This document shows, one piece after another, positions 42,448 to 54,209 of a DNA stretch of 54,600 bases. The notes under the pieces are model-generated. The model was not told the origin of the DNA. It ran no database searches and worked only from the letters and a program-made list of their open reading frames with translations. The stretch covers positions 1 through 54,600 of the forward strand of contig JAAYEJ010000050.1 in assembly GCA_012728835.1 (NCBI GenBank), in the 5' to 3' direction. The position numbers and the translations under genes were made by a program. Source of the DNA: Candidatus Brocadiaceae bacterium. Lineage in GTDB: Bacteria > Planctomycetota > Brocadiia > SM23-32. The stretch's first letter is position 1. Every line of letters begins with the position of its first letter.

Positions 42448-45400
42448 TCATCCGGGCCGGCAGGCGCGCACGGTGGCGATGAGTTCCTCGGTCGGACCGT
42501 CCTTGGTGAGATAGGCGATCGCCCCGGCCTCACGCATCGCCTGGGCGACCTCTCCGTCCAGGTGCATCGAGAGGCCGATGACCTTCGCGCGTGACCCGTC
42601 GGCCAGTATCCGTCGGGTGGCCTCCACCCCGCTCATCGCGCCCAGAGACACGTCCATGATGATGACGTCGGGCTGAAGCTGCCGCGCCAGCTCGATGGCC
42701 TGGGGGCCGTCGGCAGCGTGCCCGACGACCTCGATGTCGGACTCGAACTGGAACAGGCCCGCCAGGCCCTCCCGCACCATCTTGTGGTCGTCCACGATCA
42801 GCACGCGGCAGAGGGCGCTCTTGCGACGGATGGCCACCGTCTCCTCGCTCACGCGGCCGGCGGGCTCCTCGGCCGGGCGCGGCGGCTGCTCGGCCGACGG
42901 CGCGGTGAGCGTCACGCGCGTGCCCTTCCCCGGCGCCGTCTCCAGCACCATCTGCCCGCCGACCTGCGCCAGGCGTTCCTGGATGCTGAACAGACCGAAG
43001 GTCGCGTCGGCGGCGCTGCGCCTGCGCAGGCGGTCGGGGTCGAACCCCTTCCCCTCATCCCGGACGATGATGCGCACGCGCCTGTCGCCCGTCTGCAGGA
43101 GCGTCACGCCGGCCTCGGCGGTCCCGGCATGCTTGACGACGTTGAACAGCAGCTCGCGGACGCACTCGAAGAGCAGCGCGCGTATCTCCTCGGAGCGCGG
43201 GTCGGCCTTCGTCTCGGCCCGCACGACCACGGTCAACTGGTGCCGCTCCTTCATGCAGGACGCCAGCCAGTTGATCGCCGCGCTCAGACCCGCCTCGTGC
43301 AGCACGGGCGGGCAGAGGTCCAGCGCCAGATTCCGGCACGCCGAGAGCGCCTCGCCGAGGATGGCGTCGACGCCCCGGACGGTGGCGAGCAGGCGTTCGC
43401 CTTCGGCCTCGCGCTTGACCCATCGCACCTGCATGCGGGCGGCGGCCAGCAACTGCTGGACGTGGTCGTGGAGGATGGTGGCCAGCCGCCTGCGTTCGCG
43501 CTGCTCGGCCCGGCCCAACTCGCTGGCGAGGGCGCGCAACTGGTCCGCCTGGTGCTGAACCTGGGCCGTGCGCCGCAGGACGCGCTGCTCCAGCGAGTTG
43601 TTCAGCACCCTGAGCGCCCGCTGCGCGTCGATGCGCTGGACGGCCACGGCCACATGGTCGGTGACCGACTTCATCAGGGCCACCTCTTCGACGCCGAAGG
43701 CATCGCGCGAGCGCACCCCGAACGAGAGCGTGCCCAGCAGGGCGCCCTGGGCCACCAGGGGGTGGCAGCAGTATGCGCGGATGCCGTGGGACGCGAGCAG
43801 CTCCCTGCGAGCGTCCTGCCGCCGCTTGACGGTGCCCGGCACCGCGATGTGGTGGCCATCCGCCGCGGCGCCCCAGTCGGCCGTTTCGAGGTCGATGCGG
43901 GCGATCTCCCGGGCGACCTCGGGCGGGATGCCCGCGCAGGCGCTGACGGACAACTCGCGCCCCGGCCGGTCGATGACGCAGATCGAGAAGCACTCGCAGT
44001 TCAGGTGCGCCATGCTCAGGCGGCCCACGTCATCCACGGCCTGGTACGGGCCCACCGCCCGCAGCAGGCGTTCGGCGACGGTGGCCAGCAGCTCCAGGCG
44101 GCTTCGGCTCGACTCCAGCGCCGCCACCATCCTCCTGTGCTCGCTGATGTCGCTGAACAGCACGGCCACCTGCCTGTCCTCGGGGCGGCCGTGTCGGAAG
44201 GCATACACGTCGTACCAGCATCCCAGTTGCGCGGCTCGGCTCTGGAAGCGGCGGGGCTCGCCCGTCAAGGCCACCTGCCCGAAGGCCTCGAACCAGTAGT
44301 CCTCGTGCCCGGGGCAGAGTTCGCCCATCGTCCGGCCCTCCGCCTGCGTGAGCCCCGTCTGCCGCACGAAGGCCGGGTTCGTCTCCAGATACCTGTAATC
44401 GACGGCCCGGCCGTCGTCCGCGAAGATGACCTCGATGATGCAGAATCCCTCGTCGATGGACTCGAACAGGCTTCGGTAGCGCGCTCGGCTCTCGCGCAGT
44501 GCCCTCTCGGCCGCCTTGCTGCCGGTGATGTCGATGTTCACGCCGAAAATGCCCTGCACCGCCCCCCCGACGTGGACGGGAGCCACGACGTTCCGGAAGA
44601 CCCGCACGCCGTCCCGTCGCCGATAGGTCACCTCTCCGGTGACGACCTCGCCGCCGAACGCCCGCTCGTTGTTCGAAAGCCACTGTCGGAGGACCTCCTC
44701 GGACGGGGCGACCTCCTCCGGGCGCTTCCCGACGCGCGGCCCCCAACCGGACCGGCAGACGGGATTGGCGAACGTGTAGCGGCCCTCGGCACTCATGGCC
44801 CAGACCTCGAACGGCAGGTTGTCCACCAGCGCACGCAGGCGGGCCTCGCTCTCCACCAGGGCCCGCTCCGCCTGCTTGCTCTCGCGCAGGTCCCGGCCGA
44901 TGCCCACCATGGTGTCGGCGTTGAACGGCACGTTGCACCACTCGCTCGGGATCACGCCGCCGTCCCCCGTTGCCACATTCCACTCGCGCCACTGCGGCGT
45001 GAGCGACCGCATGAAGGCGCTCACCTCGGCGCGTTCGTCCGGATCCGGGAACAGCCGGCTCATGAACTCCCCGTCGGCCGCCGCCGCGTCGGACCATCCG
45101 AGGACGCGCCGCGCATGGGTGTTCAGGATGAACCGCTTCAGCTCGGGCTCCCAGATGATCAGCATCATCGGGATGGAGTCGACGATGCCGGACAGTTGGG
45201 CCCGCTCCCGGTCGACAGACTCCTGCGCGGTCTTGCGGGCGGTGATGTCGCTGACGGCCAACACAACCTGGCCCGGCGTCGGCGCATACCCGCGCACCTC
45301 GAACCAGGCGTCCCGCTGGACGTCGTGGTGCTCGTAGACAACCGGCTCGGCGCTGCCGGCCGCCCGCGCGAACGCCTCGGCCCAGGCCCCGTCGGGCTCC

Positions 45401-45720
45401 GGCAGCACGTCGCGCAAGGTCCGCCCCACCAGGTCGCCCCGGCTCAGGCCCGTCAGCCGCTCGAAGGCGGGGTTCACGTCCAGGAACCGGCCGTCGCACG
45501 GCCGGCCGGCCGCATCCGTGATGACCTCCTGCAGGGCCAGCCCCTCGGCCGCGTGCTCGAACAGGGCCCGGTAACGCCGTTCCGACGCCTGCAGAGCCTC
45601 CTCAACCCGGCGCAGGCGCGTCCGAGACGCACCGGCCCGCACGCCGACGGGATCTCCCCCGGTTCGCTCCGGTCCCGGCCGCAGTCCCTCTTCCGTCTCG
45701 CTCACGAAGTCAACCCCCAT
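42448..45720 (-). CDS. multi-PAS hybrid histidine kinase with C-terminal receiver
   Basis: A 1090-residue soluble sensor kinase. In order: four PAS domains (about 45-165, 170-280, 285-405, 410-530), a GAF domain (540-700), a NarL/DesK-type HisKA_3 dimerisation domain, an ATPase domain (845-945) and a receiver (971-1085). The phospho-His is H751 in RRRLATILHDHVQQLL. The ATPase domain has ELLFNVVKHAG and DEGKGFD. The receiver has Asp pair 977/978, phospho-acceptor D1023 in VIIMDVSLG and Lys1073. No membrane helix is present, so it senses cytoplasmic signals. The receiver resembles NarL-type regulators but lacks the DNA-binding domain. The ATG at 45720 has its own promoter. Confidence 0.9.
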   Translation of the reverse strand: MGVDFVSETEEGLRPGPERTGGDPVGVRAGASRTRLRRVEEALQASERRYRALFEHAAEGLALQEVITDAAGRPCDGRFLDVNPAFERLTGLSRGDLVGRTLRDVLPEPDGAWAEAFARAAGSAEPVVYEHHDVQRDAWFEVRGYAPTPGQVVLAVSDITARKTAQESVDRERAQLSGIVDSIPMMLIIWEPELKRFILNTHARRVLGWSDAAAADGEFMSRLFPDPDERAEVSAFMRSLTPQWREWNVATGDGGVIPSEWCNVPFNADTMVGIGRDLRESKQAERALVESEARLRALVDNLPFEVWAMSAEGRYTFANPVCRSGWGPRVGKRPEEVAPSEEVLRQWLSNNERAFGGEVVTGEVTYRRRDGVRVFRNVVAPVHVGGAVQGIFGVNIDITGSKAAERALRESRARYRSLFESIDEGFCIIEVIFADDGRAVDYRYLETNPAFVRQTGLTQAEGRTMGELCPGHEDYWFEAFGQVALTGEPRRFQSRAAQLGCWYDVYAFRHGRPEDRQVAVLFSDISEHRRMVAALESSRSRLELLATVAERLLRAVGPYQAVDDVGRLSMAHLNCECFSICVIDRPGRELSVSACAGIPPEVAREIARIDLETADWGAAADGHHIAVPGTVKRRQDARRELLASHGIRAYCCHPLVAQGALLGTLSFGVRSRDAFGVEEVALMKSVTDHVAVAVQRIDAQRALRVLNNSLEQRVLRRTAQVQHQADQLRALASELGRAEQRERRRLATILHDHVQQLLAAARMQVRWVKREAEGERLLATVRGVDAILGEALSACRNLALDLCPPVLHEAGLSAAINWLASCMKERHQLTVVVRAETKADPRSEEIRALLFECVRELLFNVVKHAGTAEAGVTLLQTGDRRVRIIVRDEGKGFDPDRLRRRSAADATFGLFSIQERLAQVGGQMVLETAPGKGTRVTLTAPSAEQPPRPAEEPAGRVSEETVAIRRKSALCRVLIVDDHKMVREGLAGLFQFESDIEVVGHAADGPQAIELARQLQPDVIIMDVSLGAMSGVEATRRILADGSRAKVIGLSMHLDGEVAQAMREAGAIAYLTKDGPTEELIATVRACRPG

Positions 45721-45875: not shown

Positions 45876-45950
45876 GCCCCTCGGACCATGCATCGTGCCG
45901 CACGGACGCCGTCTAAAGGAAGCCCCGCCGACCGGGGCACAGGAGCCGTC

Positions 45951-47237
45951 ATGAAGAGCGCAACGCAGGTCATTCAAGACGCGCTGGACAGCGTGCCGGT
46001 CTACGACCCCCACTGCCATCTGCGGCCGCAGAAGCCCTGGGCCGACAGCCTGGCGGACATCGCGCTGTACCATCACGTCTGGATCGAACTCGTCTCGAGC
46101 GGCCTGGGCCAGACGGCCGTCACCGAGACCGGGCTGCCGCACGAGATCTCGGACCCCGGCCTCCCGCCGCTCGAACGCCTGCGGCGGGCGCTGCCGTACC
46201 TGCCCAACGTCCGCAACACCACGGCCGGCCTCTGCCTGCGCTGGATCCTGGGGGACCTCTACGGCCTGGACGGCGACCTGAACGAACGGAACCTCGAGGC
46301 CGCGTTCCGGGCCGTGGAAGAGCATGCGGACAGCCGGGAGTGGAACGAGCACGTCCTGCGCGAGCGATGCCGCATCGAGTACAACATCACCGTCAAGGAC
46401 GGCGAGCCGCACGGGCCGCGCCTGCTGCAGGGCCGGGAGAGGATCCCCATCCACCTGGGCGGGAGCCGCTGGGCGCCGCACGAGGCCCTGGCGCGCTACG
46501 AGGAGCGGTTCGGGTTCCCGATCCGGAACGCCGACGACTACGGGCGCCTGCTGGCCGCGACGGCCCGCGCCATCGGCAAGGAGGGACTCCGCTTCATCGG
46601 CATATCGCTGCCCCCCACGACCGCGCCCGAAGGCGCCCGCCCGGAGGACATCGACGCCGTCATCCGGAAGGCGCTGAACCGGGAGCCGCTCAGCCGGGAG
46701 GAACTCGGCGGCGTCTCCCACTTCGCCATCCGGCGGCTGCTCCAGGAACTGCGCGCGACGCCGCTGCGCACGGTGCAGATGCTGGCCGGCGCGCAGGTGC
46801 TGCCGCCGCATCGGTCGCTCCCTCAATGGGACGGCGGCTTCACCGGCCACCTCGGCCGGCTCGCAGCCGAGTTCGAGGACTTCCACTTCAACATCTCCGC
46901 CGCATCGGACAACTACACGCACGACATCGCCGTCCTGGCCAAGCACGTGCCCAACATCAGCGTGGCCGGGCACTGGTGGCACACGCTCTACCCGCATTAC
47001 ATCCGCCGCGCGATCGAGACGCGCATCGACCTGGTGCCGATGCCCAAGATCGTCGCCTACTTCTCGGACGCCTACCACAGCGAGTGGTGCTACCCGAAGC
47101 TGAAGCTCATCAAGGCGATCTGGGCGGACGTGCTGTCGGAGCGCGTCGAGCGCGGTTGGATGGACACGGGCACGGCGACGGACCTGATCCGGGCGGCCTT
47201 CTGGGAGAACCCGCGCCGCATCTACGGCGGCCCGTAG
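45951..47237 (+). CDS. uronate-isomerase-like amidohydrolase-fold protein
   Basis: A 428-residue protein. ATG 45951 has AGGAG upstream; an in-frame start at 45888 has none. The metal-binding motif is VYDPHCHLRP near residue 20. Further family features are WILGDLYGLDG-like helices, FHFNISAASDNYTHDIA with Asn and Asp near the metal site, AGHWWHTLYP, and the closing FWENPRRIYG. These fit the glucuronate/uronate isomerase branch of the amidohydrolase superfamily, which interconverts hexuronates and ketohexuronates. It is shorter than UxaC (about 470) and could act on a related substrate. It converges on the pilT-like gene with only seven bases between. Confidence 0.72.
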   Translation: MKSATQVIQDALDSVPVYDPHCHLRPQKPWADSLADIALYHHVWIELVSSGLGQTAVTETGLPHEISDPGLPPLERLRRALPYLPNVRNTTAGLCLRWILGDLYGLDGDLNERNLEAAFRAVEEHADSREWNEHVLRERCRIEYNITVKDGEPHGPRLLQGRERIPIHLGGSRWAPHEALARYEERFGFPIRNADDYGRLLAATARAIGKEGLRFIGISLPPTTAPEGARPEDIDAVIRKALNREPLSREELGGVSHFAIRRLLQELRATPLRTVQMLAGAQVLPPHRSLPQWDGGFTGHLGRLAAEFEDFHFNISAASDNYTHDIAVLAKHVPNISVAGHWWHTLYPHYIRRAIETRIDLVPMPKIVAYFSDAYHSEWCYPKLKLIKAIWADVLSERVERGWMDTGTATDLIRAAFWENPRRIYGGP

Positions 47238-47244
47238 GCTGCGG

Positions 47245-48324
47245 CTACTGCGTTGCGGCGGACTTGTATCCGTCGCTGATCATGCGCGGATCGCGTGCGT
47301 GCGAGACGGCGGCGTCATACGAGATCGAGGCGGCCTCGTAGAGGCGGCGCAGCGAATCGTCCATCGAGTGCATCCCGGACCGACGTCCGGTCTGAATCAC
47401 GCTCTGCAGCTTGGACAGGTCATTTTCCCGGATGACCGATCGGACGGCCGTATTGGCCACCAGCACCTCGGTGGCCAGCACCCGGCCTTTCTTGTCCGCG
47501 CGCGTCAGCAGCAGCTGCGCGACGACGCCCTGCAGGCAGTTGGCCAGCTGCGTGATCACCTGGTTCTGCTGTCCGGCCGGAAAGACGTCGACAATCCGCT
47601 CCACGGTCTGGAGCGCGTTGGGTGTGTGCAGCGTGGCGATGACGAGGTGGCCCGTCTCGGCGGCAGTAAGTGCGGTGGATATGGTCTCCAGGTTGCGCAT
47701 CTCGCCCACGCAGATCACGTCGGGGTCCTGCCGGAGCACGTGCACGAGCGCGCGGGCGAACGAGTGGACGTCGGTGCCGACTTCCTGCTGGACGACGATG
47801 GCCTTCTTGCAGCGGTGGAGGTACTCGATGGGGTCTTCGATCGTGACGATCTTGCAGCGCCTCTCGCTGTTGATCAGGTCCAGCATGTAGTTCAACGTGG
47901 TGGTCTTGCCCATGCCGGTCGGGCCTGTGACGAGCACGAGGCCGGACGTCATCCGGGCGAACTCGTCGACGATCTCCGGCAGGCCGAGCATATCCCGCGT
48001 GGGGATGACGGTGTTGCACGACCGCAGGGCCATTTCGGGATGGCCGCCGTGGTAGTAGGCGGTGACGCGGAAGCGACCGAGGGCGCCGTCCTTGATGGAG
48101 ACGGAAAGCTCCCATTCCTTTTCGAGCTGCGCCCGCTGCTGTTCGGTGAGCAGGCTCAGCGTCATGTGCGCCGCCTGCGCGGGCGTCAGCGGCGGGGCGT
48201 CGGCGAGGATGATCTCGCCATGGATCCGGAAGGCCGGCGGGAGCCCGGCGATGACGTGCACGTCGCTGGCCATTGCCTCCCGGGCCTTCTTCATGAGCCG
48301 CGCTACCTGGCGATCAAGCTCCAT
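47245..48324 (-). CDS. PilT-like type IV pilus retraction ATPase
   Basis: A 359-residue secretion ATPase. Residues 1-100 form a PAS-like N-terminal domain (SDVHVIAGLPPAFRIHGEI). Walker A is GPTGMGKTTT, the Asp box TIEDPIEYLH, Walker B ICVGEMRNLETI and the His box ATLHT. VGEMRNLETI is characteristic of PilT rather than PilB. ATG 48324 overlaps the TPR gene by 11 bases. No pilin or other pilus gene is present in the window. It is the last gene of the nine-gene unit headed by the rhomboid-like protein, so it may power something other than a classical pilus. Confidence 0.9.
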   Translation of the reverse strand: MELDRQVARLMKKAREAMASDVHVIAGLPPAFRIHGEIILADAPPLTPAQAAHMTLSLLTEQQRAQLEKEWELSVSIKDGALGRFRVTAYYHGGHPEMALRSCNTVIPTRDMLGLPEIVDEFARMTSGLVLVTGPTGMGKTTTLNYMLDLINSERRCKIVTIEDPIEYLHRCKKAIVVQQEVGTDVHSFARALVHVLRQDPDVICVGEMRNLETISTALTAAETGHLVIATLHTPNALQTVERIVDVFPAGQQNQVITQLANCLQGVVAQLLLTRADKKGRVLATEVLVANTAVRSVIRENDLSKLQSVIQTGRRSGMHSMDDSLRRLYEAASISYDAAVSHARDPRMISDGYKSAATQ

Positions 48325-49108
48325 TGTCGCTCCGTGTAAACCAGCGTTTGACGTATCCCCACAGGCTCCTGCGCCGCCGTGCCAGCCGCAGGCGGGCCTG
48401 GTCGCACAGCGGGTCGAGCTGCAGGGCTTCCGTGAAGGACTGGGCCGCGTCGGGCAGGCCCAGGGATTCCTGGCAGAGGCCCACCTCGAGCGCGACCGCC
48501 GCGTGAAGCGGCATCGCCGCCTGCGCAGCCTTTGCATGGTAGAGCGCCTCCGACCGCCGCCCGTAGCGGCGCAGCACGCGCGCCACCTCGACGTTCATCC
48601 AGGCCCGGTCCACCGTGGCCGGGCTTTCGGCGATCGCGCGCAGAAGGCATTCGCCGGCCATGCGCCCGCGACGGGCCAGGAGGACCTCGCCGCGCGCCAG
48701 CCACGTGTAGGGGCTGCCGTCCCTGCCGGCCATCGCGCTGTCGGAGAACGCCATCGCGCGGCTGTCCATGCCCGTGCGGGCGCAGATGACGGCGCGGGCG
48801 GCGAGCAGGTCCGGGTGGTCCGGGAACATCTCCAGCGCCTTATCCGCCCACACGCCCGCCTCCGTGTACTCCTCCAGTTCGATCAGGATGCGCACCTGCA
48901 TGAGCCAGCAGCCGCAGGCCGTCGTGTCGCATTCGAGCGCGCGCGAGTAGCTGCGCAGGGCCGCCTCCAGCCGCCCCAGCCGGTATTCCTCGCCGGCGGC
49001 CTCCCGGAAATACGAGCAGTCGCGGACCGGCGTCCCCGTGGTCTCGCCGGAATGCCGTCGAGGCCCCGCCTTCGGCCGCTCAAACTCCAGGCTGTCGAAC
49101 CGGCTCAT
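48314..49108 (-). CDS. TPR-repeat protein
   Basis: A 264-residue soluble protein of tandem TPR-like helical pairs between about residues 30 and 245. Examples are EYRLGRLEAALRSYSRALEC, LEEYTEAGVWADKALEMFPD, RRSEALYHAKAAQAAMPLHA and LGLPDAAQSFTEALQLDPLC. Six or so repeats are visible. No catalytic domain is present. Its start overlaps the preceding S26-like gene by four bases (ATGA type), and its end overlaps pilT. It is likely a scaffold for the other proteins of the operon. Confidence 0.8.
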   Translation of the reverse strand: MSRFDSLEFERPKAGPRRHSGETTGTPVRDCSYFREAAGEEYRLGRLEAALRSYSRALECDTTACGCWLMQVRILIELEEYTEAGVWADKALEMFPDHPDLLAARAVICARTGMDSRAMAFSDSAMAGRDGSPYTWLARGEVLLARRGRMAGECLLRAIAESPATVDRAWMNVEVARVLRRYGRRSEALYHAKAAQAAMPLHAAVALEVGLCQESLGLPDAAQSFTEALQLDPLCDQARLRLARRRRSLWGYVKRWFTRSDNGA

Positions 49109-50127
49109 CCGCCGGGCTCCTCCTTCGGGGCACGCGGAAGCCAGCGGGCGCGCCGAAGCGGCCGCCAGAGCATGAACGCCCGTCCCGCCAGACCGGTCAG
49201 ACGCGGCATCGCCACGGTCTGGATATACGTGGATACGGGCGGAGCGTCCCCGCCGTGGTCGGTCCGTGCATACTGAGGCGGCAGACAGAGGCAGTGATCT
49301 GCCGGAACGACGATCTCCGTCGCACCCGCAACGGGCAGCGGCGAGATGTCATACCGCGTCTGCCGGCCATCCGCCCTGGTCACCGTCACCTCCGCGTGGT
49401 GAATCTTCACCGTGTCGCCGGCCAGGGCGATCACCTGGCTCATGACCTCACCCCCACCGAGCCGATAGCCGGCGCCTCCGGCCGGTTCGATCGGATAGAG
49501 AACCAGGTCCCCCCGCCGCGGCGCCCGGGCACCGCCGCGATGCACAAGGAGGAGATCCCCCTGGCGGACGGGGCCTGCATCGACGGCGGATCGTGCGCTC
49601 CGCACAAGCCGCCCGGCGGCGGCTCGGACCGGCGCGTACAATCCGAACGCAAGCAGCAGGAACAGACAGAGTGATGCACCGATCCGCAGCCATGCGCTGT
49701 TCAGGCGCTTGTTGAGGTCAACGGAGTCGGCCGCAACATGGGCGTGCAGCGCCACGGCCAGGCCCAGGAGCCAGCCGCCGGGCGTCGTGCCGTAGAGTGC
49801 CAGCCCCGCCAGAAGGCAGCCGCCCCAGCCGGCGGTGAACCAGCGGACGCGCCGGCCCCTGCCGGTGAGCAGGTGGCCGAGGCCAGGGACAACTGAGGCT
49901 GCACCCGCCCACAGGGGACCCGGGAGGGGGCCGGCCGGCGCCCGCCTGGGGGATCTGAGGAAGCCCAGCGCGTTTCCGAGCCGGTATCGCATGCGGCGCA
50001 GCCGGCGCGGTCCGCGGGCGCGCGGCGGCGTGACGCTGATCGGCTCGCGCACGACCAGCACGCCGCTGCATCGCCCGCAACGTTCCAGGCCGGGCATGTT
50101 CTCGAAACCGCACCGTCCGCACCGCAT
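49105..50127 (-). CDS. zinc-ribbon S26 signal-peptidase-like membrane protein, probably inactive
   Basis: A 340-residue protein from ATG 50127, with GGGAGGG upstream. It begins with a zinc ribbon (MRCGRCGFENMPGLERCGRC). At least three membrane segments follow between residues about 75 and 175. The C-terminal half has the S26 shape: VRQGDLLLV, RRGDLVLY and MSQVIALAGDTVKI. In active enzymes the first is preceded by SMxPT and the last reads KRVIGLPGD. Here no SMxP is present and the Lys is replaced (MSQV), so the Ser-Lys dyad is missing. It could bind rather than cut peptides. Confidence 0.7.
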   Translation of the reverse strand: MRCGRCGFENMPGLERCGRCSGVLVVREPISVTPPRARGPRRLRRMRYRLGNALGFLRSPRRAPAGPLPGPLWAGAASVVPGLGHLLTGRGRRVRWFTAGWGGCLLAGLALYGTTPGGWLLGLAVALHAHVAADSVDLNKRLNSAWLRIGASLCLFLLLAFGLYAPVRAAAGRLVRSARSAVDAGPVRQGDLLLVHRGGARAPRRGDLVLYPIEPAGGAGYRLGGGEVMSQVIALAGDTVKIHHAEVTVTRADGRQTRYDISPLPVAGATEIVVPADHCLCLPPQYARTDHGGDAPPVSTYIQTVAMPRLTGLAGRAFMLWRPLRRARWLPRAPKEEPGG

Positions 50128-50146
50128 CGGGCGCCCTCCCGGCGGG

Positions 50147-50371
50147 CTATGCCTCGTTCGATTCCCTGACGTGCTGGACCTGCTCGGCATCGACGCGCAC
50201 GCGACCATCCCGCTCGTAGTACTCCTGCGTCAGTCGCCGCTCCGCCACCGGCCCCACGACGTCCGCAAGGAAGTTCACGTATTCGAGGCACTGCTCGCCC
50301 TTGACTCCGCGAACGTGCACTTTCACCCGCCCGTCCCGCGCGATCTCGATTTCGATGTTGCGTTCTTTCAT
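50147..50371 (-). CDS. DUF2997 family protein
   Basis: A 74-residue protein. The family pattern is clear: ERNIEIEIARDGRVKVHVRG followed by VKGEQCLEYVNFL and VVGP. DUF2997 members are small, of unknown function, and typically neighbour DUF1257 and Ycf46-type ATPase genes, as here. ATG 50371 has GGAGGG six bases upstream; GTG 50377 is possible. The C-terminal part (LTQEYYERDGRVRVDAEQ) is longer than in short members. Confidence 0.8.
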   Translation of the reverse strand: MKERNIEIEIARDGRVKVHVRGVKGEQCLEYVNFLADVVGPVAERRLTQEYYERDGRVRVDAEQVQHVRESNEA

Positions 50372-50389
50372 GCGCACCCTCCGGCTCGT

Positions 50390-50878
50390 TCAGACCGCCT
50401 GCCGGCGGACGTGGATATGAACCGTCTCATCCTGGGCGACGCCTTCCTGGATGACGGTGAACCCCTTGTTCTTCAGCTCCGTCATGACCCGGTTGTAGAC
50501 GTACATCTGGGTCACCTTGTCGACAACCTGGCGGCCGATCTCCCGCAGTTCCTCGCTGCCCCTGCCCGCGCCTTCCACGCAGACCTTCAGCGCCCCGCGA
50601 AGGTCGCGCGAGATGCGCACGCGGACGCTGTCCCTGACGAGCACCAGCTCCTGCTCTCCCGCGAGGCTCTCGCCGAGCACCTCGGAATTCTCCACCTCGA
50701 CTTCGACGGTGGTCTGCTCTTCCTGTCCGGCCTGCACGGCCGCGGCGGCTTCTACGGACGCGCGCACGCCCTCCCTGGCCATCGAGAAACCCAGTGCCGC
50801 GGCCGCGCCCGCCACGGCGGCGCTGATCATCGGCCAGCCCGCTATGATCGTCGGCGTGAGAATGCATACGGCGCTCAT
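50390..50878 (-). CDS. DUF1257 (Ycf35-like) protein
   Basis: A 162-residue protein from ATG 50878. The C-terminal half matches the DUF1257 plan: IGRQVVDKVTQMYVYNRVMT, then ELKNKGFTVIQEGVAQDETV and a closing HIHVRR. The N-terminal 35 residues are hydrophobic and Ala-rich (MISAAVAGAAAALGFSMARE), so it may touch the membrane, unlike typical members. Position between DUF2997 and the AAA ATPase follows the conserved gene neighbourhood. The molecular function is unknown. Confidence 0.75.
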   Translation of the reverse strand: MSAVCILTPTIIAGWPMISAAVAGAAAALGFSMAREGVRASVEAAAAVQAGQEEQTTVEVEVENSEVLGESLAGEQELVLVRDSVRVRISRDLRGALKVCVEGAGRGSEELREIGRQVVDKVTQMYVYNRVMTELKNKGFTVIQEGVAQDETVHIHVRRQAV

Positions 50879-50907
50879 GTCGTCGCCTCCTCTCCCTGTT
50901 TCGGTGT

Positions 50908-52470
50908 CTAAAGCTCGATCTTGCGCCGCACGTCGGCGACGTCCTGCGGCCGTGGGACCGCCGCGTTGCGGGCCCGGCCGTCCGCCCACCGGCGCAGGCG
51001 CGCGATCTCCTCTTCCATGGTCTTCGACAGCGGCACGGTCTCCCGGATGCACTTCAGGATGGCCTTCGTCGAGAGGTCTTTCTTGTCGTAGAAGGCATCG
51101 AAGAGCGCGGAGACGATGCTCTCCTCGATTTCGGCTCCGCTGAATCCTTCCGAGAAACCGGCCAATTCGTCCAGGTCGAAGGCGGCCGGATCCCGCTTGC
51201 GCTTCTCGATGTGGATGCGGAAGATCTCCCTGCGTTCGCTGCCCGACGGCAGGTCGACGAAGAAGACCTCGTCGAAGCGCCCCTTGCGGATCAGCTCCGG
51301 CGGCAGGGCGCGGATGTCGTTGGCCGTGGCCACCACGAAGACCGGCGCCTGCTTCTCCGCCAGCCAGGTCACGAACGTGCCGAAAACGCGGGACGCCGTC
51401 CCGCCGTCCGTCACGGCCGTCCCGCTCTGGCGCGCGAAGGCCTTGTCGATCTCGTCGATCCACAGGATGGCCGGTGCGACCGACTCCGCCACCTTGATGG
51501 CCCGCCGGATGTTCTCCTCCGAGGAGCCCACGAGGCTGCCGAAGACGCGGCCGACGTCGAACCGGAGCAGGGGAAGGTCCCAGAGGCGCCCGATGGCCTT
51601 GGCCGTCAGGCTCTTGCCGCAGCCCTGCACGCCCAGGAGCAGTATGCCGCGCGGCGCCGGCAGTCCGAACTCCTGGGCGTCGTCCGAGAAGGCCGCCACG
51701 CGCTTTTCGAGCCACGACTTCAGCCCGTCCATGCCGCCCACGCCGGACAGGTTATCCGCGGTCTCGCAATACTCCAGAAGGCCGCTCTTGCGGATGATCT
51801 GCTTCTTCTCGCCGACCACGCGCGGCACCTGTGTTTCGTCCAGCCGCCGCGCCGTGACGAGGATCTTCGCGAAGACGTTCTCCGCTTCCGTCAGCGTCAG
51901 GCCGAGCGCAGCCTTGACGAGCTTCTCCCGCGCGCCGTTGTCCAGGTCGATCCTCACCTGGGGGTTCTCGCCCAGCTCTTTCTGGACCCTTCCCAGCAGG
52001 GCGTTGATCTCGCCCGGGCCCGGCAGGTCGAAGTCGATCACCGTTACGTCCTTTTCCAGGTCGAGCGGGATCTCCATGATCGGCGCGATGAGGATCACCG
52101 TCTTGTAGCTGTGCTTCAGGCTCTGGACGATTTCGCGCAGGCGGCGGACGACCGTGAAGTTGCCCCTGGACAGGAAGTGGTGGAAGTCCTTGAAGATGTA
52201 GATCGCCGGCTCTACGTCGCTGATGACCCTGTCCAGGGCCACGAGCGGATCCTTGGTGGCGGCATCCCGATGGTGGTCCGACTGAAGCGACGTGCCGACG
52301 GGCACGAGGCCGGTCGTGATGGACCATTCGTAGACCTGCTTGTCCCGCTTCCGCGCCAGCGTGGTGATGTCGGCGACGACGCGCGCCTCCTCCCACGTCG
52401 TCACGTAGATGACCGGGTAGCGGGCGCGGATCAGCACCTCCACTTCACTTGCCTGCTTCAGCATCGCCAT
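50908..52470 (-). CDS. Ycf46-type AAA+ ATPase
   Basis: A 520-residue AAA+ protein. The N-terminal region ([20 protein letters not shown]) to about residue 230 is typical of Ycf46-like ATPases. The AAA domain has Walker [16 protein letters not shown], Walker [14 protein letters not shown], sensor-1 region [20 protein letters not shown], and the Arg finger area [16 protein letters not shown] 52470 has GGAG eight bases upstream. The start overlaps the small upstream gene by 26 bases. Ycf46 proteins are widespread in cyanobacteria and other phyla, and their substrate is unknown. Here it is the probable motor of the operon. Confidence 0.9.
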
Positions 52471-52660
52471 GTCGGGTCTCCGCGTCTTGCTGAGGGGTCC
52501 GGGAAGGGCGGCGGGGCAGCGCCAGGCGGCGGCGGACGGCCGTTTCGCGCGGATGGAGCGCCGCGGCAAGGTCGAGCAGATCGCCGCTCAGACCGTCCAG
52601 ATAGACGCGTCCGTCGGGCCGTATCCGCACCTGGATCGGGTTTTCGGGGCCAGTTGCCAT
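52445..52660 (-). CDS. 71-residue operon protein of unknown function
   Basis: ATG 52660 has GGAG upstream within the overlapping end of the radical SAM gene. The first 36 residues look ordered: NPIQVRIRPDGRVYLDGLSG followed by DLLDLAAALHP. The IRPDGRVYLD strand pattern echoes the ARDGRVKVHVRG start of the DUF2997 protein, so it may be a distant small relative. The C-terminal half is basic and polar. It overlaps the AAA gene by 26 bases, consistent with tight coupling. I do not recognise a family. Confidence 0.55.
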   Translation of the reverse strand: MATGPENPIQVRIRPDGRVYLDGLSGDLLDLAAALHPRETAVRRRLALPRRPSRTPQQDAETRHGDAEAGK

Positions 52661-52663
52661 GCT

Positions 52664-53494
52664 TCACTCCACCAGTTCAATGCCGGCCGCGCACGCGGCG
52701 TCCCGGGCGCGATCCAGCTCCTCATCCGTTATATACGCCGCCGGCGCCCCGTCATTTGCCTGGGGCGGCATGTATTCGCCCTTGAGCGCCAGCCGCGGCG
52801 AGTCCAGGGACGAAGACAGCCATGCCAGGATGGGGCGGAAGCAGCATTCGAAGTGCCCCGGCAGCAGCAGATGCCGCACGATGAGTTCGCTCGCCGTCCC
52901 TGCCTGCAGGAGGTTCCTGGTGACCGTCTCGAAGTAATCCGGCGCGTCCGCTATGCGCCGGGCGCATCCGTCGTTTCCGAACTTCAGGTCCGCCACGTAG
53001 ACGTCGACGACGCCCGACAGGGTCTCCAGGGCGCCGGACGACATGTACATGTTGGTATCCCAGGCGACCGGGGGGACCGAAGGCAGCCGCGCCAGCAGGT
53101 CGAGGGCAGCCGGCAGGTTCACCGTGGGCTCCCCGCCGACGAAGAGGAGCGTGCGCGCGCCTTCTTCTTTCCGCGCCGCCACCCGGGAGGCCATGGCCGC
53201 GGCGTCCATGGGCGCCGCGGCGCTTGGGCGGGCGTTCCACTCCGCCGCCGTGCAGAAGCCGCACCGCATGTTGCAGCCCGCCAGGTAGACGGCGTGGGCG
53301 GGCGCGATCTCCAGCTCGACGCCGAAATGGAGCATCTCCCGGAAGCAGTGGGCCTCAGGTCCGAGGCCGCAGTAGCCGCGCTCGCCCCGAAGCCGGTCGA
53401 CGCCGCAGTCCCTCGCGCAGAGGCTGCACGAGCGCAGCAGACGCCGGGCGGCCCGCGCCCGCTCTCCCAGGCTGTCTGCGGTCGCCGGCTGCAT
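52664..53494 (-). CDS. radical SAM protein (PFL-activase-like)
   Basis: A 276-residue protein from ATG 53494, with AGGAGG nine bases upstream. An N-terminal four-Cys cluster (CSLCARDCGVDRLRGERGYC) precedes the radical-SAM motif AGCNMRCGFC (CX3CX2C), which binds the 4Fe-4S cluster. Later motifs are LLFVGGEPTVNL (the GGEP loop), WDTNMYMS and DVYVADLKFGNDGC. This layout fits the pyruvate formate-lyase-activating-enzyme-like group used for peptide or protein modification. No glycyl-radical enzyme is encoded in the window, so the target is likely another protein, perhaps within this operon. Confidence 0.88.
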   Translation of the reverse strand: MQPATADSLGERARAARRLLRSCSLCARDCGVDRLRGERGYCGLGPEAHCFREMLHFGVELEIAPAHAVYLAGCNMRCGFCTAAEWNARPSAAAPMDAAAMASRVAARKEEGARTLLFVGGEPTVNLPAALDLLARLPSVPPVAWDTNMYMSSGALETLSGVVDVYVADLKFGNDGCARRIADAPDYFETVTRNLLQAGTASELIVRHLLLPGHFECCFRPILAWLSSSLDSPRLALKGEYMPPQANDGAPAAYITDEELDRARDAACAAGIELVE

Positions 53495-53507
53495 CGTTCG
53501 ATGCCTC

Positions 53508-54209
53508 CTATCCGTCCAGGTCGATCTCACTGAACCGCTTCGCCGGGGCGCGGGGCTTGCCCGGACGGCCCCGCAACCGCCACGACCGGCTGCAGAGCTC
53601 CGCGTAGAGAAGCCCGAAGGCGGCTCCCGACAGCCAGAGGATGCCGGCGACGGGCACGAGGTTGAAAAGCAGGATCACGACGAGCGCGCCAATGACCACA
53701 TAGGGGACGGCGATGGGACCCGGTGCGAGGATGAGCCAGATCTTTTCGCCCCGGCAGACGTGCCCAAAGGCCGCCAGGACCGCGCAGAGCAACCCGGTGC
53801 TGCCGACGAGGACCATGCCGGATTCTGTCTCCGGCAGCACACGGATCAGGCCGGCAGCGGCCGAGGTCAGCACGCAGAACAGGAGGAAGCGCGCCGTGCC
53901 CCACGCGCGCTCCAGGCGGCTGCCGCAGAAGAGAAGGATGAAGAGGAAGGAGATCAGCAGCCCGACGAGGCACGGAGTCGGGTAGAGCCCGGCGTAGGTC
54001 AGCGGCTGCCAGAGGCGCAGGCGGTGAAACAGGCCGTCGGCGCCCAATCCCAGCGCCAGCACGAGCGAGACCGCGCTCTGCTCCGGCATGAACAGCGGCA
54101 CGGCGAACCCCAGGATGTGGAGACACGCAATCGCGGCCACCCCGGGGGTCAGAAGTCGTCCGCCCGCCGTCTGAGGCAGCTCCACACGCTCCCAGCGCAC
54201 CTGCTCCAT
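53508..54209 (-). CDS. rhomboid-like membrane protein lacking catalytic residues
   Basis: A 233-residue protein with six membrane segments between about residues 20 and 215. The rhomboid fold is suggested by WQPLTYAGLYPTPCLVGLLI, ERAWGTARFLLFCVLTSAAA, LVGSTGLLCAVLAAFGH and GILWLSGAAFGLLYAE. In active rhomboids these last two read GxSG and HxxGxxxG. Here the Ser position reads Thr (GSTG) and the His position reads Trp (WLSGAAFG), so it is a predicted pseudoprotease. ATG 54209 has GGGAGG upstream. It is the first gene of the nine-gene unit. I see no convincing promoter in the 287 bases before it. Confidence 0.78.
   Translation of the reverse strand: MEQVRWERVELPQTAGGRLLTPGVAAIACLHILGFAVPLFMPEQSAVSLVLALGLGADGLFHRLRLWQPLTYAGLYPTPCLVGLLISFLFILLFCGSRLERAWGTARFLLFCVLTSAAAGLIRVLPETESGMVLVGSTGLLCAVLAAFGHVCRGEKIWLILAPGPIAVPYVVIGALVVILLFNLVPVAGILWLSGAAFGLLYAELCSRSWRLRGRPGKPRAPAKRFSEIDLDG

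Follow-up and report, generated by a model that had tools for sequence, protein, structure and literature searches.

The 54,600-nucleotide window analysed here, the whole stretch of contig JAAYEJ010000050.1 from a Candidatus Brocadiaceae bacterium, contains a nine-gene operon organised around Ycf46, an AAA+ ATPase. Ycf46 and Ycf35 (the DUF1257 family) are still hypothetical proteins, despite their retention in cyanobacteria and algal plastids. The operon proves to be a modular system, with a core of Ycf46, a tetratricopeptide repeat (TPR) protein and a PilT-family ATPase, and an accessory set comprising a radical S-adenosylmethionine (SAM) enzyme, DUF1257, DUF2997 and an S26 signal peptidase-like protein, which are gained and lost together. 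We tentatively propose, with a probability of roughly 40%, that its products form a membrane-tethered AAA+ remodelling machine with adaptors docked through short peptides, a second, PilT-type motor and an Fe-S/radical SAM sub-module. The conserved partner set, the co-varying module and two short terminal peptides make the function directly testable.

Ycf46 loci were collected through an alignment scan of named genomes, which yielded 80 loci, and profiles of the nine window proteins were run on all of their open reading frames (ORFs). Ycf46 homologues were present in 86 of 86 loci analysed. The order radical SAM-Ycf46-DUF1257-DUF2997-S26-like-TPR-PilT was found in 28 other loci (25 of those surveyed and three further genomes of the window's phylum), distributed across Planctomycetota (Phycisphaerae, Pirellulaceae and others) and Verrucomicrobiota. 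Because the gene order recurs in these loci, the operon is more than chance, and the possibility raised by the first-pass annotation, that the genes flanking the Ycf46-DUF1257-DUF2997 trio are conserved in no other genome, is contradicted in two phyla. The neighbourhood survey it had suggested recovered a recurrent seven-gene set, in the form of a modular unit and not of one fixed nine-gene set. A rearranged partial set with no adjacent operon-type radical SAM gene occurs in Riflebacteria/Ozemobacteraceae (L097, L105) and in locus L092. Within the window's phylum the system is sporadic, as strong operon-type DUF1257 matches were found in only approximately 17 of 392 genomes, and a search of eight same-family genomes recovered no close Ycf46.

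Most of the surveyed genomes are drafts, so gene absences are provisional. Genome-wide searches of genomes carrying the minimal form found neither DUF1257 nor DUF2997; likewise, the operon-type radical SAM enzyme was not found genome-wide where these two were lacking, only weaker relatives at around 1e-40 being present. Several Verrucomicrobiota genomes have a lone Ycf46 gene following an extracytoplasmic function (ECF) sigma factor and a small protein, and in eight of these lone-Ycf46 genomes the TPR-PilT block lies elsewhere, in some cases with DUF1257, DUF2997 and the S26-like gene. One genome (G078, locus L037) has a truncated radical SAM gene, a 94-residue S26 remnant and no DUF1257 or DUF2997, as if the accessory module were decaying, a pattern that draft quality could mimic.

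The operon consists of nine co-directional ORFs on the minus strand between 54209 and 47245, with gaps of at most 29 bp and three overlaps, bearing out the tight packing noted from the sequence at the outset. With the likely starts, successive spacings from gene 1 to gene 9 are 13, 3, -26, 29, 18, 19, -4 and -11 bp; corrected starts are ATG 53494 for the radical SAM enzyme, ATG 52470 for Ycf46, ATG 50878 for DUF1257, ATG 50371 (or GTG 50377) for DUF2997, ATG 50127 for the S26-like protein and ATG 48324 for PilT. Upstream of gene 1, 391 bp remain before the end of the contig. Identities are based on Pfam and NCBIfam profile matches, and positions are numbered on the window, as follows.

53508-54209, minus strand: gene 1, rhomboid-like membrane protein (pseudo-rhomboid), 233 residues (Pfam Rhomboid, 6.5e-8)
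53511-53537, minus strand: pseudo-rhomboid C-terminal peptide RFSEIDLDG, resembling the RFxxLE tag (comparison of homologue ends)
52664-53494, minus strand: gene 2, radical SAM enzyme, activase/COG1313-like (Pfam Radical_SAM, 1.3e-11; alignment)
52445-52660, minus strand: gene 3, small protein of 71 residues with a DGR(V/I) hairpin (33 homologues in the same place)
50908-52470, minus strand: gene 4, Ycf46-type AAA+ ATPase, 520 residues, N-terminal domain and C-terminal AAA domain (Pfam AAA, 9.5e-28)
50911-50928, minus strand: Ycf46 C-terminal tail RRKIEL (same tail type in DUF1257/DUF2997-associated Ycf46, including cyanobacteria)
50390-50878, minus strand: gene 5, DUF1257 (Ycf35) family protein, 162 residues (Pfam, 1.9e-6)
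50147-50371, minus strand: gene 6, DUF2997 protein with invariant GxxGxxC (Pfam, 8.4e-15; alignment)
49105-50127, minus strand: gene 7, zinc ribbon, membrane segment(s) and S26 signal peptidase-like domain (weak Pfam/NCBIfam S26)
48314-49108, minus strand: gene 8, TPR protein, 264 residues (Pfam TPR; alignment)
49082-49102, minus strand: TPR-protein N-terminal tag RFDSLEF (alignment of homologues)
47245-48324, minus strand: gene 9, PilT-family ATPase (TIGR01420, pilT_fam, 404.9 bits against a cut-off of 319.1; tree)

Read from the sequence, the flanking genes are a convergent 449-residue hydrolase-like ORF (45888-47237, plus strand) and a 1090-residue PAS/GAF sensor with a response-regulator end (42448-45720, minus strand).

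The first of the two peptides is an N-terminal RFxxLE tag, carried by 36 of 37 operon TPR proteins; in an alignment of 24 homologues R3, F4, L7 and E8 are invariant. The same peptide recurs on unrelated proteins encoded after Ycf46 in other phyla, an association that is new: NHL propellers directly 3' of Ycf46 in Chthonomonadaceae and others (L086, L087, L090, L094, L101, L109), and zinc-ribbon proteins in Omnitrophota and L095 (L091, L095, L098). TPR proteins of Sumerlaeota (L155-L157) also start this way, as do the products of genes following Ycf46 in deltaproteobacterial records (L113, L116). When an ATG start and RFxx(L/I)E were both strictly required, just seven others among 6,606 ORFs were tagged, all seven directly 3' of Ycf46; looser rules brought in another two or three genes 3' of Ycf46, plus around 15 background hits. 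TPR and NHL proteins bearing the tag are still present where neither DUF1257 nor DUF2997 was detected in the genome, and Ycf46 is therefore their constant partner and most likely the receptor of the tag. We rejected the idea that the tag labels clients throughout the genome, since the TPR gene is the only in-frame match in the window's own genome.

The second peptide is the C-terminal tail of Ycf46 itself. A model built from relatives of the window protein finds cyanobacterial Ycf46, encoded beside DUF1257, at around 1e-195, in keeping with relatedness over the full length, and the solved structure closest to the AAA domain by sequence is p97 D2. The RRKIEL tail of the window protein has similar counterparts in most operon copies, of the type (R/K)(L/I/M)E(F/L/I). 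Cyanobacterial copies beside DUF1257 mostly end in YQRMEF or YQRLEF; copies without DUF1257 lack these ends. In the cyanobacterial phylum, small genomes that probably belong to Vampirovibrionia encode DUF2997 together with an NrdG-like radical SAM enzyme, and their Ycf46 ends in RGGRTIEF or RGGRALDV; in L269-L274 the NrdG-like gene is paired with Ycf46 and DUF2997, and L270 has a 420-residue DUF1257-like protein. Counting DUF1257 or DUF2997 neighbours within 3 kb of Ycf46, 65 loci have both tail and neighbour, 12 the neighbour only, six the tail only and 56 neither (Fisher 5e-20, the sequences being related), a few cyanobacterial rows being scored as lacking the neighbour merely through the profile threshold. 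This association, spanning Planctomycetota to cyanobacteria, is new and suggestive, being borderline after phylogenetic correction.

Some loci depart from the usual arrangement. Two genomes of the window's own class (G036 and G030; L035, L036) carry a second, divergent trio, consisting of a distant Ycf46-like gene (34-36% identity), a small DUF1257-like protein recognised by eye, and DUF2997. One operon has two DUF1257 genes in tandem (L050, 5034-6005), and L092 (3-3164) has two tandem Ycf46 paralogues, of which only the second has a tail-like end. In Verrucomicrobiota (L051:696-1268, L041:8087-8314 and relatives), an ECF sigma factor and a conserved protein of about 75 residues (..EFxSxEExLRxDA..WWRRL) lie upstream of the radical SAM/Ycf46 genes, and are possibly a sigma/anti-sigma pair controlling them.

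The small proteins of the accessory set belong to known families. DUF1257 scores 28.5 bits (cut-off 22.2) over its C-terminal part only, and DUF2997 54.8 bits (cut-off 24.1), with G22, G25 and C28 invariant in the alignment. An AlphaFold model of DUF1257 (pLDDT 80.7) had no Foldseek match at E<=0.001, and its VIA-align scores were middling (the best, Z 6.0, was to a BamC domain, with 92 residues aligned and a root-mean-square deviation of 4.1); given these results no function was read from the fold. DUF2997 gave a poor model (pLDDT 62.8). Neither DUF1257 nor the radical SAM enzyme gave a sequence hit in searches of solved structures. Comparison by hhalign suggests that DUF1257 and DUF2997 may be related (probability 49%, P 1.7e-4). 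The 71-residue protein of gene 3 matched DUF2997 weakly (probability 21%) and DUF1257 not at all in the same type of comparison, making it a possible remote DUF2997 relative.

Both membrane proteins resemble proteases, and are best read, from their alignments, as non-catalytic. Gene 1 matches the rhomboid superfamily (PF01694, 33.3 bits, cut-off 22.6) and has GSTG in place of the GxSG of rhomboid proteases; the catalytic Ser and the His of transmembrane segment 6 (TM6) are absent from every operon homologue (GSTG, GNVG, GSAAC, GVSAC, GANAC and so on). The S26 match of gene 7 lies in the second half of the protein and is below the cut-off (Peptidase_S26, 0.0023), and operon proteins of this family lack both the catalytic Ser and Lys of signal peptidase I, the SMxPT motif being absent and the Lys position occupied by other residues. 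The first-pass annotation had counted two polytopic membrane proteins, a description that suits gene 1, with five to six or so hydrophobic segments, and does not suit gene 7, which has one strong hydrophobic stretch alongside its zinc ribbon and S26-like domain. The C-termini of pseudo-rhomboid homologues (RFADLD, GFVDID, GFVDLE, RVARLEL, RIRRLEL, DFIDLD) resemble the RFxxLE tag: a loose pattern lies near the C-terminus of 11 of 12 rhomboid profile hits, the twelfth (L099) being an unrelated rhomboid, and 7 of the 12 show a strict F-pattern, compared with 1% of background ORFs. S26-like C-termini (SRFGRIE) were not counted as tags, as QRIGTLD, a similar end, occurs on a canonical signal peptidase (L112).

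The radical SAM enzyme has the characteristic CxxxCxxC motif (as CNMRCGFC; Pfam Radical_SAM, 45.3 bits, cut-off 29.5) and seven further invariant Cys, which would be enough for additional Fe-S clusters. These include an invariant CxxCxxxC, a Cys at position 42, C177 and a CC pair at 217-218. It belongs to none of the known equivalogs PflA, NrdG2 and AmmeMemoSam, its best NCBIfam score being 31.1 bits against a cut-off of 174. The system might instead be one of protein modification, in which this enzyme modifies DUF2997 or the 71-residue protein, Ycf46 chaperones the product and the remaining components deliver it. The enzyme's resemblance to activases, its travelling with DUF1257 and DUF2997, the presence of a different, NrdG-like radical SAM gene in the small genomes of the cyanobacterial phylum and the invariant residues of DUF2997 are all in keeping with such a scheme, the strongest of the alternatives though an unlikely one. 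However, the DUF2997 Cys is also kept where no radical SAM gene was seen nearby (L277), in cyanobacteria that position is taken by a ferredoxin (PMC4284462), and Ycf46-TPR-PilT occurs without the enzyme.

The PilT protein also admits a different interpretation, that of a type IV pilus accessory operon whose PilT retracts or regulates pili or pseudopili, with Ycf46 and its partners assembling or tuning the motor. Besides scoring above the TIGR01420 cut-off, the protein retains the motifs GPTGxGKTTT, HvLRQDPDVI, GEMR and AAETGHLV, and T2SSF platform proteins and other PilTs were present in all 18 operon genomes tested. However, a tree of 63 sequences placed the 42 PilTs encoded in the operons, from Planctomycetota, Verrucomicrobiota, Riflebacteria and L092, in one dedicated clade (97*), separate from 20 other PilTs drawn from the same kind of genomes. 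The operon also lacks pilin, PilB and PilC genes, while elsewhere the window's own genome encodes platform proteins and three more members of the PilT family that pass the cut-off, one of them (C45:83037) near a PilB-like gene (C45:81799). In Armatimonadota, Ycf46 accompanied by tagged NHL proteins lacks an adjacent PilT. Overall, a pilus function appears doubtful.

An anti-phage defence operon is very improbable: the PADLOC match to IetA (1.2e-23) covers the AAA domain only, none of the nine genes encodes the subtilisin partner IetS of an IetAS system, the remaining genes have no meaningful defence match, and the order kept over two phyla, with cyanobacterial and plastid relatives, suggests housekeeping. 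A chance grouping of unrelated genes in a single lineage, to which the low counts in the window's family and phylum might point, can be dismissed in view of the 28 other same-order loci, the coherent co-loss and the operon-specific PilT clade.

In the remodelling machine that we favour, Ycf46 would be the engine, and the TPR adaptor, or the NHL propeller or zinc-ribbon protein in other phyla, would dock on it via the N-terminal RFxxLE, with the PilT-family ATPase encoded beside the adaptor supplying a second motor. At the inner membrane, the pseudo-rhomboid and the catalytically inactive S26-like protein may keep hold of the machine and of its client, a membrane or secreted protein, without cleaving the latter, and the F/VxxL(D/E)-like C-terminal peptide of the pseudo-rhomboid could recruit the same complex, much as the Derlin tail motif does Cdc48/p97. 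Within the accessory sub-module of radical SAM, DUF1257, DUF2997 and S26-like proteins, the (R/K)(L/I/M)E(F/L/I) tail of Ycf46 would dock on DUF1257/DUF2997, and the Fe-S enzyme may mature or read out one of the small proteins. The membrane-associated machine with two ATPases initially envisaged is plausible as such a modular unit, its protease-like components apparently inactive, while its assembly or modification activity is something we infer. Several observations weigh against this proposal. The rhomboid-like gene is present in just 12 loci, and is not a core part; the likeness between its C-terminal peptide and the N-terminal tag is short, and was spotted by eye, post hoc. DUF1257/DUF2997 occur without the tail in L053, L055 and L058, and of 10 independent contrasts on the tree approximately five agree with the tail association, none oppose and approximately five are invariant (median p 0.06). 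No tagged ORF was found within 1.5 kb of cyanobacterial ycf46.

More speculatively, and with less likelihood than the machine itself, the operon may represent an AAA+ system that is widespread in bacteria and analogous to Cdc48 with Derlin, with an RFxxLE-type code for Ycf46 on unrelated adaptors and an inactive rhomboid, the Ycf46 tail docking DUF1257/DUF2997, and a radical SAM enzyme or ferredoxin tying in Fe-S chemistry. On either reading, protease-like membrane proteins would have been reused as scaffolds for an AAA+ ATPase in bacteria.

A literature search on the gene combination found no paper on the combined operon. Several of its parts can be compared with known systems. The PilT resembles the type IV pilus ATPases PilT and PilU in its TIGR01420 membership and conserved ATPase motifs, but differs in its separate clade and in lying in an operon without pilus genes. 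Similarly, gene 7 shares with bacterial signal peptidase I a weak S26 profile match in its second half, but its family lacks the catalytic dyad and has an added zinc ribbon in Planctomycetota. A further comparison is with the cyanobacterial and plastid Ycf46 proteins (Slr0374), which share the adjacent DUF1257, the DUF2997-DUF1257 operon (PMC4284462) and the tail type. In Synechocystis, by contrast, DUF2997 and ycf35 form one operon with fed7, which encodes a [4Fe-4S] ferredoxin (PMC4284462), and no radical SAM, S26-like, tagged TPR or PilT gene lies beside cyanobacterial ycf46 within the short stretches read. Synechocystis Ycf46 is encoded in a stress-responsive operon, and its inactivation is described as lowering EcaB activity (PMC7496141, citing Jiang et al. 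2015), while in red algal plastids losses of ycf35 and ycf46 have a similar habitat association (PMC5940233). Finally, Derlins recruit Cdc48 via a tail motif (PMC8641752). The operon system differs from Derlin/Dfm1-Cdc48/p97 in having no ubiquitin system and an RFxxLE-like peptide instead of the SHP motif, such that the analogy would be functional only, but in both a rhomboid pseudoprotease is combined with a p97-D2-like AAA ATPase and short tail motifs (PMC8641752).

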